Positions 4,505 through 11,523 of a DNA stretch of 20,347 bases are shown one piece after another. This DNA is from a virus, in the IMG/VR virus record IMGVR_UViG_3300006789_000246, positions 1-20,347 of that record; one strand, given 5' to 3'. Position numbers and translations under genes: made by a program. The notes below the pieces were generated by a model. The model ran no database searches and was not told the origin of the DNA. It worked only from the letters and a program-made list of their open reading frames with translations. Position 1 is the first letter of the stretch, and each line of letters starts with the position of its first letter.

Positions 4505-4751
4505 AGCTCTTTTTGAAAGAGTTTTTGAAACAGAAGATGGTAAACGTGTGCTGGAAGATTTGTGCGTGCGTAACTTCATCTTCTCGCCGTGTATAGTCCC
4601 TGGCGATCCATACTATACACATTACAACGATGGCAGGCGGTCAGTAATTGCTGATCTTCTAAGCTATCTTAATATTAGCACTTCAGAACTGGAACGCATG
4701 GAGCGAGAATCCTATGAGCGAAGAAGCAACGAGTACGACAACGAATACTGA
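4476..4751 (+). CDS. Bbp19-like small phage protein
   Basis: This 91-residue protein resembles the Bbp19-like phage family, named after a Bordetella phage BPP-1 protein. It carries the pattern F.TEDGKRVLEDL at 18-30, then YTHYNDGRRSVIADLLSYLNI at about 47-67. The family is usually found between portal and scaffold in podoviruses, as here; its exact function is not established to my knowledge. The C-terminus is short, charged and Tyr/Glu/Arg-rich. Both ends are embedded in neighbours: 29 bases overlap the portal and 38 bases overlap the scaffold gene. No other in-frame start precedes the conserved block, which supports the ATG at 4476 although the ribosome site is weak and coupling to portal translation is likely. 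Confidence 0.85.
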   Translation: MLKRQEKERKALFERVFETEDGKRVLEDLCVRNFIFSPCIVPGDPYYTHYNDGRRSVIADLLSYLNISTSELERMERESYERRSNEYDNEY

Positions 4752-5544
4752 AGTACCACAGGAACCTAGCACCATTTTAGGTGGTGGAGGTGAACCCCAA
4801 GGTGCTGCATCAAACCTAGCATTCAATCCTGACAGTCTTCCAGGCGAGCTTGCAAACGAGCCGAGCCTGAGAAATTTTGACAGCATCGAAAAGCTAGCAA
4901 AATCATACGTTCATGCTGTTCGCAAGCTGGGCGCACCTGGAGAAGAATTGGTGCGTGTCAACGGCGAAGCAGACAAGGACGAAATATACAATCGACTTGG
5001 GCGACCTGAAGATCCAGGGGGTTACGAGTTCGATGGTGAAGTGCCAGACCACTTCCGCGAAGCATCTCACAAGATTGGCCTTAACAAAGACCAAGCGCGC
5101 GATCTTCTAGGTTATATTTCCGACCAGAATAAGCAGCATTCCGAGAGCATGCGCGATAACTATGAAAAGGAACAAGTCAACTATCAGCAATCTCTTCAGA
5201 AGGAATTTGGAGATGATTACGGCAAAAACGTGGAGCTAGCACGGCGCGCGTTTCTCCAGTACGGAGATGCTGAGACTGTCAAGTTTCTGGAAGAAAGCGG
5301 TCTTGGAAATCATCCAGGTTTGATAAAAACTTTCAGCAGAATTGGAAAATCCTTGTCTGAAGATAACTCTTTGCTCCCAGGTGCGGGCGAGAACCTTGGC
5401 GGGATGACTCCTGTTTCTGCGCAATCACGGCTTTCTGAATTGCGTGCCGACACTGACTTTATGCAGGCTTATAATGATGCATATCATCCAAAGCATTCTG
5501 AAGCAGTAAAACGCATGACCGATTTATATCAATATATGCACTAG
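4714..5544 (+). CDS. Capsid assembly scaffolding protein
   Basis: This protein templates prohead assembly around the portal and is expected to leave before or during DNA packaging. The 276 residues are acidic and largely helical. Typical elements are a disordered N-terminus (1-50, Thr/Glu/Gly-rich), the helix SLRNFDSIEKLAKSYVHA (51-68), the conserved turn EIYNRLGRPEDPGGYEF (90-106), a long charged helix (about 123-165), the EFGDDYGKNVELARRAF block (164-180) and a basic-containing C-terminal helix (235-275), where scaffolds usually contact the capsid protein. It sits directly before the capsid gene. The ATG at 4714 lies within the 3' end of the previous gene, with GGAGCGAG about nine bases upstream. 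It ends with TAG at 5542-5544, followed by the main non-coding gap. Confidence 0.92.
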   Translation: MSEEATSTTTNTEVPQEPSTILGGGGEPQGAASNLAFNPDSLPGELANEPSLRNFDSIEKLAKSYVHAVRKLGAPGEELVRVNGEADKDEIYNRLGRPEDPGGYEFDGEVPDHFREASHKIGLNKDQARDLLGYISDQNKQHSESMRDNYEKEQVNYQQSLQKEFGDDYGKNVELARRAFLQYGDAETVKFLEESGLGNHPGLIKTFSRIGKSLSEDNSLLPGAGENLGGMTPVSAQSRLSELRADTDFMQAYNDAYHPKHSEAVKRMTDLYQYMH

Positions 5545-5552
5545 CATTAAGA

Positions 5553-5561
5553 TGATATAAT
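5553..5561 (+). promoter_or_regulatory. Candidate extended -10 promoter for the capsid gene
   Basis: The string TGATATAAT fits the sigma-70 extended -10 consensus (TGnTATAAT) exactly and lies nine bases after the scaffold stop codon, in the only gap of more than 25 bases. No good -35 box is visible at 16-18 bases spacing (the region is TATATG-like), which an extended -10 can tolerate. Transcription would begin near 5568 and give a leader of roughly 140 bases ahead of the capsid start. If the phage uses its own RNA polymerase this site may be irrelevant; no phage-specific promoter repeat could be recognised. Confidence 0.45.
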
Positions 5562-5567
5562 TTAATA

Positions 5568-5710
5568 AAACGATTTCATCCACCTTGCTTGTCAGCAAAG
5601 CTTGAGGATAACGCGCGAGCGCCCAGGTAGCTAGCAGGCTGGAACCCCACTGTTCGGGATAACTCCAAATTTGTGCAAGGGATTTGAACCTTTGACATTG
5701 GAGTTATTCT
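5568..5710 (+). ncRNA. Structured 5' leader of the capsid mRNA (candidate cis-RNA)
   Basis: This stretch contains no plausible ORF on the + strand and is GC-richer than the AT-rich bases just before it. It can form a series of local helices. The first is an 8-bp stem with a two-base bulge, 5583-5590 with 5598-5607, loop GTCAGCA. The second is a 3-bp stem capped by a GCGA (GNRA) tetraloop at 5612-5621. The third is CCAG/CTGG at 5623-5626 and 5639-5642. The fourth is CCC/GGG at 5646-5648 and 5656-5658, which competes with the final RBS hairpin. It does not match any riboswitch or Rfam family I can identify by eye. Its position suggests control of translation or mRNA processing/stability for the most highly needed protein. 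The folding was done by hand and is not energy-scored. Confidence 0.45.
5656..5710 (+). promoter_or_regulatory. Hairpin sequestering the capsid gene ribosome binding site
   Basis: A perfect 10-bp inverted repeat, ATAACTCCAA (5659-5668) and TTGGAGTTAT (5698-5707), encloses the capsid Shine-Dalgarno GGAG (5700-5703). Two G-U pairs and one G-C pair (5656-5658 with 5708-5710) can extend it right up to the ATG at 5711. Inside it, CAAGGG (5676-5681) pairs with CCTTTG (5689-5694) with one G-U wobble and a seven-base loop. The wobble pairs form only in + strand RNA, not in the complementary strand, which supports an RNA function over a DNA palindrome. In the closed form the start region would be masked. 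Opening by a ribosome finishing the upstream scaffold gene, by the upstream CCCC pairing with GGG, or by a factor would allow translation. Confidence 0.6.
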
Positions 5711-6652
5711 ATGTCCACGCAGATAACAACTGCGTTTACCAAACAATATGCCGATAATGTTTCGCTGCTTGTGCAGCAACAAGGCAGTCGTTTGCGTAAC
5801 GCTGTCAGACTTGAAGCTGGCAAACGTGGCGAAGAAGTTTTCATGGAAAGAATTGGTTCTACAACTGCACAAGTTGTAACCAGCCGACATGCAGACTCTC
5901 CGCTGATTGATACCCCGCATGACCGCAGGCGAGTAACGCCAGTGAGTTACGATTGGGGCGATATGATAGACGATGCGGACAAAGTTCGCATGCTGATAGA
6001 TCCTACATCTCCTTATGCTGTCAACGCAGCTTATGCGATGGGAAGGGCTATCGACTCAAAAGTCATCGAACAGGCACTTGGGACTGCTTACACTGGAAAA
6101 ACTGGAACAGGATCACAAGCTTTAGGCTCAGGCCAAAAGGTTGCTGTCGATTTCCATACTTATGATGGTGGAAGCGGAGATGTCGGATTAACCATTGGTA
6201 AACTTCTGGAAGCACGCAGAATCTTAGGGGCGGGCGAAGCAGATGATTACGATATGGGCGGACGACCCAATATGTTCCTGGTCGCAAATGCTAAGCAGCT
6301 AGCAAAGCTTATGGCTGATTCCAGTTTTGCTCACTCAGCAGCAGCGGGTGGAGTCAATGCTGTGAGCGCAGACTATAATAGTGTGCGTGCGCTGGTAGCT
6401 GGTGAGATCAATACCTTCATGGGCTTTCAGTTCATCAGGTCTGAACTTATCACTACAGATAGTTCTAGCGATGACCAAGTGATTGCTTTTCATCGTGATG
6501 GACTTGGCCTTTGCATTTGGGATGATATTCGCGCGAGGATTACCGAGCGTGCTGACAAGCGTTTCTCTACATACGTTTATTTTTCGATGACCATCGGATC
6601 GGTGAGATTGGAAGAAGAGCGCGTTGTTGAGATTGCTTGCGATCCTTCTTAA
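5711..6652 (+). CDS. Major capsid protein (Phage_capsid_2-like, HK97 fold expected)
   Basis: This protein builds the icosahedral shell. The 313 residues show the pattern of the Phage_capsid_2-type coat protein found in many podoviruses. The N-terminal helix is about 11-35 (QYADNVSLLVQQQGSRL). The block DRRRVTPVSYDWGDMIDDADK (71-91) is followed by LIDPTSPYAVNAAYAMGRAID (95-115) and GTAYTGKTG (124-132). There is a Gly-rich region to about 145 and a C-terminal domain ending with SMTIGSVRLEEERVVEIAC. No protease or cleavage domain is evident. The ATG at 5711 has GGAG at 5700-5703, held in a strong hairpin. It follows the scaffold gene, as usual, and is the only gene in the window with its own long leader. 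No intrinsic terminator follows it. Confidence 0.93.
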   Translation: MSTQITTAFTKQYADNVSLLVQQQGSRLRNAVRLEAGKRGEEVFMERIGSTTAQVVTSRHADSPLIDTPHDRRRVTPVSYDWGDMIDDADKVRMLIDPTSPYAVNAAYAMGRAIDSKVIEQALGTAYTGKTGTGSQALGSGQKVAVDFHTYDGGSGDVGLTIGKLLEARRILGAGEADDYDMGGRPNMFLVANAKQLAKLMADSSFAHSAAAGGVNAVSADYNSVRALVAGEINTFMGFQFIRSELITTDSSSDDQVIAFHRDGLGLCIWDDIRARITERADKRFSTYVYFSMTIGSVRLEEERVVEIACDPS

Positions 6653-6674: not shown

Positions 6675-7109
6675 ATGGCAAATAAGTTTGGTGTTAATTA
6701 CACCGCGCAAGACCCTGTTGGTGCTGGAGTCACTGATGGCACTGTTCCTGCCGCAGTTGATGTAGCCGAATGGGGTGGGCGAGTTCGTGTGTGCTATGAC
6801 AGCTTTACGGCAAGTGGAGCAACTGGCACAACTGATGTCCTTTATCTGGGAAAAGTCCCAGCAAATGCGACACTGCTTTATGGTGTACTCCAGCATAACA
6901 ACACAGGTTCTTCCACTTATGCTATTACAGTGGGAGCAACTACGATGCGTGCAGCTGCTACGGCAACCATTAGCGTAGCTCATATTTTTGGAGCAACTGC
7001 TGCTGGAACAAAAACCACAGCATTGTCGGATGTGAAAGTCACTCTTGGAACTGCTGCATTAGCGGATACCAAGACAATCAAGTGTATGATTTATTACACA
7101 GTTGATTGA
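6675..7109 (+). CDS. Small beta-rich protein encoded after the capsid gene (candidate head decoration/structural protein)
   Basis: This 144-residue protein is Ala/Thr/Gly-rich with alternating hydrophobic residues, suggesting a beta fold. It has no signal peptide or membrane segment. It opens with MANKFGVNYTAQDP, followed by a GGRVRVCYDSF block (about 34-44) and LYLGKVPANATLLYGVLQ (about 56-73). Marine podovirus genomes often encode proteins of this look and size right after the capsid gene, commonly left as hypothetical structural proteins. A capsid decoration or vertex role is plausible from position, but no motif proves it. A strong AGGAG at 6666-6670 gives an unambiguous start. An eight-base gap separates it from the gp11-like gene. 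Confidence 0.8.
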   Translation: MANKFGVNYTAQDPVGAGVTDGTVPAAVDVAEWGGRVRVCYDSFTASGATGTTDVLYLGKVPANATLLYGVLQHNNTGSSTYAITVGATTMRAAATATISVAHIFGATAAGTKTTALSDVKVTLGTAALADTKTIKCMIYYTVD

Positions 7110-10857: not shown

Positions 10858-11523
10858 ATGATTGAATACATCGGCTATGCGTTGCTAGCCAAAGGGATTC
10901 TTGAAGGCTACGGAGGTTATCAGTCTAGCATGAAGTCTGAAAAGCTTATGCGCAGACAGGCTGATCTTAATCGAAAGTATGGAGACAGAAAGCTTCAGTT
11001 TGCAAACATGCAGGCCGAAGAAGTTCTCAAGGCAGCAGAACAAAACGCTCAATACATGGAATGGGAAGGTGGCTATCAAATAGCAACCCAGAGAGATAAA
11101 GGCGAGCGCGCAGTTAGAGATATTATTTCATCCACTGGAAGCAGTGGTGCAGTTGTCAATTATGGATCACCAAGGCGTGTAGCAATGGCGCAGGCGCTCG
11201 TTAATAAGTTTGCAGTGGATCAGATGAATCAAAGTCTTTCTATCAAGACAGCAACCATCCGAAACAATGCTAGCAGAAGTGCAGAAATGATCGTCAAACA
11301 AGGCGAAATGGAGCGCGAATATTATTATGACTTGGGGGGCATGGCGAACCGATCCGCAGACAACATGGGGAGCGCGCGTAATCTTACGCTCTTAACAAGC
11401 GCTTTAAACACAGGCTCGCAGATGATGTGGATGGATTATTCTTCAAGGACACAAACAGGCGCAGGAGGTAAAGCTTCAGGCGTAGGGGCTAAGGGAATGT
11501 CAATGTTTAACTGGATGTACTGA
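10858..11523 (+). CDS. Putative internal virion protein (T7 gp14-like position)
   Basis: This 221-residue protein directly follows the nozzle gene, where T7-like phages encode the small ejection protein gp14 that forms the outer-membrane channel. A short hydrophobic N-terminal stretch (YIGYALLAKGILEGYGGY, 4-21) is followed by a long Gln/Glu/Ala-rich helical region (about 25-165) and a Gly-rich tail ending in MSMFNWMY. That arrangement (apolar N-terminus, long helices, Ala/Met-rich) is typical of gp14-like proteins. I see no exact family motif, so the assignment rests on position and composition. It starts two bases after the previous stop with only a weak ribosome site. Confidence 0.75.
   Translation: MIEYIGYALLAKGILEGYGGYQSSMKSEKLMRRQADLNRKYGDRKLQFANMQAEEVLKAAEQNAQYMEWEGGYQIATQRDKGERAVRDIISSTGSSGAVVNYGSPRRVAMAQALVNKFAVDQMNQSLSIKTATIRNNASRSAEMIVKQGEMEREYYYDLGGMANRSADNMGSARNLTLLTSALNTGSQMMWMDYSSRTQTGAGGKASGVGAKGMSMFNWMY

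Follow-up and report, generated by a model that had tools for sequence, protein, structure and literature searches.

The window, i.e., the entire stretch of DNA analysed here, is a 20.3-kb virus record (20,347 nucleotides) carrying podovirus-like structural genes for a terminase, a head-tail connector, an assembly protein, the major capsid protein and tail proteins. The major capsid protein gene is located at positions 5711–6652 of the + strand (PHROG 3437, major head protein; E = 5.5e-71). Its product is 44–48% identical to Pelagibacter phage capsids, HTVC010P among them, and the source is a marine phage related to HTVC010P; a nucleotide search of phage records using the window gave no match. 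HTVC010P is an abundant Pelagibacter phage, from one of the most abundant phage groups of the sea. Upstream, positions 4714–5544 (+ strand) encode a capsid assembly (scaffold/protease-like) protein (PHROGs 3742 and 458); the gene at the same position in phage Baldr is annotated as capsid assembly protein. Two proteins of the structural cluster (6675–7109 and 10858–11523) have no PHROG match, and in Baldr and Skadi the gene at the place of the former is annotated as a TonB-dependent receptor domain protein.

The capsid leader and its Shine-Dalgarno hairpin

The interval separating the assembly protein gene from the capsid gene (5545–5710, 166 nt) is non-coding. Since an ORF running off the 3′ end covers that part of the window, this capsid leader is the sole long gap, as an earlier sequence-only reading had claimed. 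At its downstream end, ATAACTCCAA (5659–5668) and TTGGAGTTAT (5698–5707) are perfect reverse complements of 10 bp, and the pairs G5656-T5710 (G-U), G5657-C5709 and G5658-T5708 (G-U) lengthen the Shine-Dalgarno (SD) stem to 13 bp (5656–5668/5698–5710), which stops at the base adjoining the ATG at 5711. The 3′ arm (5698–5710, + strand), assigned from sequence, fold and ensemble, contains the SD motif GGAG (5700–5703), 7 nt upstream of the ATG. No other strand of the leader complements the SD as well as the 5′ arm, GGGAUAACUCCAA (5656–5668, + strand), which constitutes the anti-SD strand. Inside the hairpin (5676–5694, + strand; sequence and fold), a nested stem of 6 bp, including one G-U, is formed by CAAGGG (5676–5681) and CCUUUG (5689–5694) around a 7-nt loop (5682–5688). 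The inverted repeat with its G-U/G-C/G-U extension, the nested stem and the location of GGAG had all been reported in the sequence-only reading, and each is found in the sequence as reported. On the minus strand, TTCAAAT at 5682–5688 together with the flanking stem resembles a tRNA T-arm; ARAGORN detects no tRNA, the motif is not conserved in the relative L009, and the resemblance is probably a coincidence.

The segment 5650–5713 folds with −24.3 kcal/mol at 37°C (z = −5.69), a stability equalled by none of 200 shuffled sequences, and its fold contains 13 + 9 pairs in the window hairpin. The minimum free energy fold of the wider region 5568–5730, which had been suggested as a check, has a z of −2.49. 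In the predicted ensemble of the window, the SD core has an unpaired probability of 0.00, and freeing the SD is predicted to cost 14.3 kcal/mol. The proposal of a + strand RNA hairpin hiding the capsid SD is supported. The wobble pairs had also been taken as a sign that the hairpin acts as + strand RNA; in L009, T5710 is replaced by C and the G-U becomes G-C, which fits this view. A thermometer reading would have to accommodate the stability of the SD hairpin at 37°C together with a conserved upstream partner strand, which is unexpected for an RNA thermometer.

Lack of conservation or covariation in relatives had been named as evidence that would count against the hairpin. Across the window superclade, the SD-hairpin pairs are conserved and covary, being 82.9% paired as compared to 67.0% in shuffles (0/2000). 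Among the closest relatives (alignment A3) there are no double changes, an uninformative result because the SD hairpin is nearly invariant there; RNAalifold on A3 returns mainly the SD hairpin.

A core of bulged hairpins in homologous leaders

Capsid searches in IMG/VR and phage records yielded a first set of 234 leaders, with 105 representatives. Homologous capsid leaders contain two bulged hairpins in mirror orientation, hairpin A with the bulge on the 5′ side and hairpin B with the bulge on the 3′ side. The bulge consists of four bases, AYAA or GUAG (variants GCAA, GCAG, GAAG and AGAA), opposite a single C or U; C is the partner of AYAA and U that of GUAG, as might be expected if isosteric A-C and G-U wobbles were formed. 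Several clades have extra hairpins or a pseudoknot between A and B. In L556, L557, L561 and L562, the coding sequence further upstream seems to contain a second B-type bulged hairpin (UUAG-C-CC..GG-ACAA-CUAA), so that the A-B pair is replaced by a B-B pair.

By homology with the hairpins of its relatives, the window has a hairpin A at 5606–5624 (+ strand; GG-AUAA-CGC-GCGA-GCG-C-CC) and a hairpin B at 5641–5666 (+ strand; GGA-A-CCC..GGG-AUAAC-UCC). Both are weak: the outer stem of A has 2 bp and fails the strict two-module test, while B has 3 bp on either side of the bulge and is not reported by the strict B detector. The strict two-module detector fits L014, L015, L038, L048, L101 and L057 of the window superclade, as well as L125, L126, L061 and L063, and each fit is matched by 0/300 shuffles. 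No fit is obtained in the window, L009, the L026 group, L109/L114, or the HTVC010P and L225 types; hence the window hairpins are called by homology only, and the membership of the window in this family is likewise drawn from its relatives. A long-range helix between CCUUGC (5583–5588, + strand) and GCAAGG (5675–5680) could tentatively close the whole core. This tentative candidate was read directly from alignment A3 and has as counterparts CCUUGC/GCAAGG in the window clade, CCUGC/GCAGG in the L026 group and CCUGCC/GGCAGG in L031.

Because the covarying structure was not recovered when core sequences were folded singly by minimum energy, the core was derived by comparison. In the L225 clade (alignment A2), hairpin A, a GNNAGA-loop hairpin, an H-type pseudoknot and hairpin B make up 25 pairs; 93.0% of the cells are paired, as compared to 24–41% in slid controls. 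Changes on both sides occur at 15 pairs (90 such cells versus 30 in shuffles), and one pseudoknot pair varies among CG, GC, UA and AU. The HTVC010P clade (A6) has hairpin A, a central hairpin, a second hairpin and B, with 26 pairs that are 99.2% paired, 9 of them with changes on both sides. In a part of the window superclade (A5), B is 100% paired (helices 3 and 4) and shows changes of the types G-C/A-U and U-A/C-G; the outer B pairs show no covariation beyond shuffles in the wider superclade set, because they are nearly invariant. Overall, the alignments point to a conserved structured core common to distant relatives, to which the window itself is assigned by homology only.

In some lineages this RNA overlaps genes, since it sits within the open frame of the upstream gene in the L225 clade, and hairpin A lies inside a small annotated CDS in HTVC010P. 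Covariation combined with invariant third codon positions suggests selection at the RNA level. It is the C-terminal coding part of the upstream frame (L225 clade) or of the small upstream ORF (HTVC010P) that is overlapped, an arrangement of dual coding (L301 1227–1403; L225, L288).

The covariance model R1, built from A2, finds the capsid leaders of distant clades (L123, E = 1.3e-14; L058, 4.9e-11; L124, 2e-9; L060, 2e-4), gives a weak match on phage Lederberg (E = 0.12), and produces at most one match per record when run on whole records; the window and most of its superclade are not detected by R1. L125 and L126 bridge the two styles, having AYAA bulges and the GAAAGA-loop hairpin together. 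When matches were collected by a capsid-independent pattern scan followed by R1, 32 of the 33 full-length matches examined, a number that leaves out six short partial or secondary R1 matches with E >0.05, lay directly upstream of a capsid homologue. The RNA therefore occurs with one gene family and in one copy per genome, like a phage protein operator or an element of autogenous control. A divergent capsid lineage (L362, L325, L361, L366 and related loci; about 32–36% identity, about 345–380 aa) also has the core, and no SD is recognisable upstream of the capsid start in L362-type leaders.

When bacterial genomes were scanned for the core pattern, 6 matches were obtained, only one of which reached R1, and that weakly (L431, a Pseudonocardia MAG; 22.9 bits); it is not upstream of a capsid gene and was judged a chance match. 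The loose pattern CGGACCN{2,10}GGAYAATCCG had 15 of its 80 matches in capsid leaders, the rest looking like chance. Rfam 15 contains no match at the gathering score and no convincing weak match at relaxed thresholds, and we found no description of a capsid-leader RNA in open-access papers.

The strand shared by hairpin B and its downstream partners

As far as the aligned sequences indicate, the 5′ arm of the SD hairpin corresponds to the 3′ half of the conserved upstream bulged hairpin B. In 17 of the 19 representatives from the window superclade, no part of the leader is a better SD complement than the post-bulge strand of B, and the same holds for L123, L124, L127, L129, L136, L171, L180, L192 and L196. 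The length of the SD helix is 13 bp in the window, 12 in L109, 11 in L317, 10 in L014 and L026, 8 in L124, and 7 in L038/L048 and L196. Within the window superclade, the strand pairs with its own SD at −10.9 kcal/mol versus −6.9 kcal/mol with SDs exchanged between clades, a difference reached in 1/20,000 permutations, or in 0/20,000 once other lineages are added, both figures coming from few independent lineages. The exchange test did not detect this lineage-specific fit in the HTVC010P, L225 and L060 clades, nor in L125/L126. Between L038 and L048, an A-U of B becomes G-C while a G-U of the SD helix becomes G-C; in L556 and L562, from another lineage, both strands of B differ without loss of the SD partner (read by eye). 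Since the same strand pairs in B and in the SD hairpin, the two helices cannot coexist, and the leader has the appearance of a mutually exclusive expression platform, with a terminator form in L435.

In L435 (7402–7340, minus strand), the capsid gene is preceded by a strong intrinsic terminator (z = −5.87), in which a hairpin of 13 + 6 bp adjoins a downstream UUUUUUU and has GGGGACAAUCCGG, the 3′ half of B, as its 5′ arm. Its predicted form is that of a textbook intrinsic terminator, probably a natural antiterminator/terminator pair. The interval between core and capsid in L378 (1609–1765) and L337 (4443–4596) contains a terminator-like GC hairpin and a T run, with which B is not visibly shared. 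Most leaders have no terminator downstream of the core. Regulatory leaders typically exchange outputs on a common core.

The SD hairpin is not universal: in leaders of the HTVC010P type, and in two further large clades, the core is present and a lineage-specific SD hairpin is not. The leader RNA is much more widespread than this hairpin, which is only one of the various devices found downstream of it. The presence of the core where SD pairing is missing (HTVC010P, L225 and L060 types) or where there is no clear SD (L362) implies a role of the core beyond SD hiding. The sequence-only reading thus stands as regards the SD-hiding hairpin and the idea of a switch, which is strengthened by the strand sharing, conservation and covariation in relatives; it overlooked the wider leader RNA, and its further suggestion of processing by a double-strand RNase fares badly (see below).

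A proposed switch, its alternatives and known systems

We estimate at roughly two in three the probability that the capsid leader acts in cis as an RNA switch. Starting from the hairpin, the core in relatives, the covariation, the mutual exclusion and the link to the capsid gene, all established by comparison and computation, we infer a switch that works in cells, the direction in which it would act and the nature of its trigger. In this model, a conserved core of bulged hairpins stands directly upstream of the capsid start. In the ON form, the 3′ strand of B would pair with its own 5′ strand, leaving the SD free and the capsid translated; in the OFF form, it would pair with the SD (through the 13-bp hairpin in the window) and capsid translation would be off. 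Freeing the SD is predicted to cost 4–14 kcal/mol in the window superclade, and by energy OFF would thus be the default state. Because the SD hairpin alone is far more stable, something must hold the B form or catch the RNA before refolding; the core would be both the ON form and the part recognised by a trigger. An assembly-pathway protein is a better candidate than a metabolite, given the restriction to one gene family, the presence of at most one copy per record and the small size. We tentatively suggest the capsid or scaffold protein, a choice that falls well short of even odds; with such a trigger, capsid would be made when assembly can use it.

A different role for the core, doubtful in our judgement, would be mainly that of enhancing translation or stabilising the mRNA of the most-needed protein, by ribosome docking or by a protected 5′ end after cleavage in the scaffold-capsid intergenic region, with the SD hairpin as a secondary local brake. 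The distance between core and start codon speaks for this role: in the leaders scanned, strand B3 starts 32 to 54 nt upstream of the start codon, a near-constant spacing kept even where there is no SD hairpin or SD. However, the repeated capture of the same B strand by SD helices or by a terminator would be left unexplained.

We also regard as doubtful that the core is the aptamer of a metabolite or ion riboswitch, with B as the switching helix. A conserved core with a pseudoknot, followed by variable and mutually exclusive outputs (SD hairpin, terminator), is what such a riboswitch would look like. On the other hand, the RNA is found only upstream of capsid genes, at most once per record. Glutamine riboswitches have been reported in SAR11-related myophages (PMC9004378), but the RNA has no Rfam riboswitch match and falls into no described family, and the shortest leaders (L043 and L104) retain hairpin B alone, which is small for an aptamer.

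Rather unlikely is a kinetic timer that needs no trigger, in which B would form first on the nascent RNA, ribosomes would load, and the SD hairpin would later shut off old mRNA. B lies 5′ of the SD and is hence made first, and the energetic preference for the SD hairpin given above agrees with such a timer, but B is very weak in the window and the strong conservation of the bulge sequences would not be needed.

It is very unlikely that the leader is a put- or EAR-like antitermination RNA with RNA polymerase as its target. The structured RNA with its paired bulged hairpins does lie inside a late operon, and terminators are found directly downstream in L435, L378 and L337; yet such an element would be expected neither to keep a constant distance from one start codon nor to show lineage-specific pairing with the SD, and the absence of a downstream terminator from most leaders also speaks against it. 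RNase III processing, for which the 13 + 9 pairs of the window hairpin would be suitable, is highly improbable since a long conserved double-stranded stem is not found: the SD stem has only 4–8 bp in many relatives, in which the overlap with B is retained. Short inverted repeats are common, but a chance hairpin, scarcely credible here, is refuted by the z of −5.69, the conservation, the covariation and the comparison of own with exchanged SDs.

If the preferred reading of a cis-acting switch is extended to the whole family, tailed phages related to HTVC010P may widely share a regulatory RNA of a new class. Its twin bulged hairpins would sense how far virion assembly has advanced, through free capsid or scaffold protein, and capsid synthesis would be set through exposure or concealment of the SD or, in some lineages, through antitermination; we put this forward as a possibility rather than as the expected outcome. 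Little is known of RNA-level control of capsid synthesis in tailed DNA phages. If this proposal is true, relatives of a very abundant marine phage group share an undescribed capsid leader RNA, and annotations would change, since a small annotated ORF of HTVC010P, as well as open frames of the L225 clade, overlap with the RNA. It also offers a testable model (strand B3 paired either to B5 or to the SD), together with a covariance model and natural variants that differ in output.

The capsid leader resembles translational riboswitches with SD-sequestering platforms in its conserved upstream core and in the strand shared with an SD helix or a terminator; it differs from them in having no known ligand, a single target gene family (the phage capsid) and no Rfam 15 match. 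Among phage translational operators are the MS2 coat hairpin and the pseudoknot of the T4 gp32 leader. A bulged hairpin or pseudoknot near a phage start codon and a likely protein target are common to these operators and the capsid leader, whereas the latter has two mirror-image bulged hairpins, SD control by strand exchange, and the capsid gene of a dsDNA phage as its target, its protein binding being putative. Ribosomal-protein leader RNAs exert autogenous control and, like the capsid leader, comprise one RNA per gene family with SD hiding or terminators depending on the lineage; the capsid leader is viral, however, with the capsid as target and a putative regulator. Finally, put (HK022) and EAR are antitermination RNAs that make the polymerase ignore distant terminators. 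They too are structured RNAs with several hairpins inside long operons, whereas the capsid leader is held at a near-fixed distance from one start codon and is coupled to its SD.
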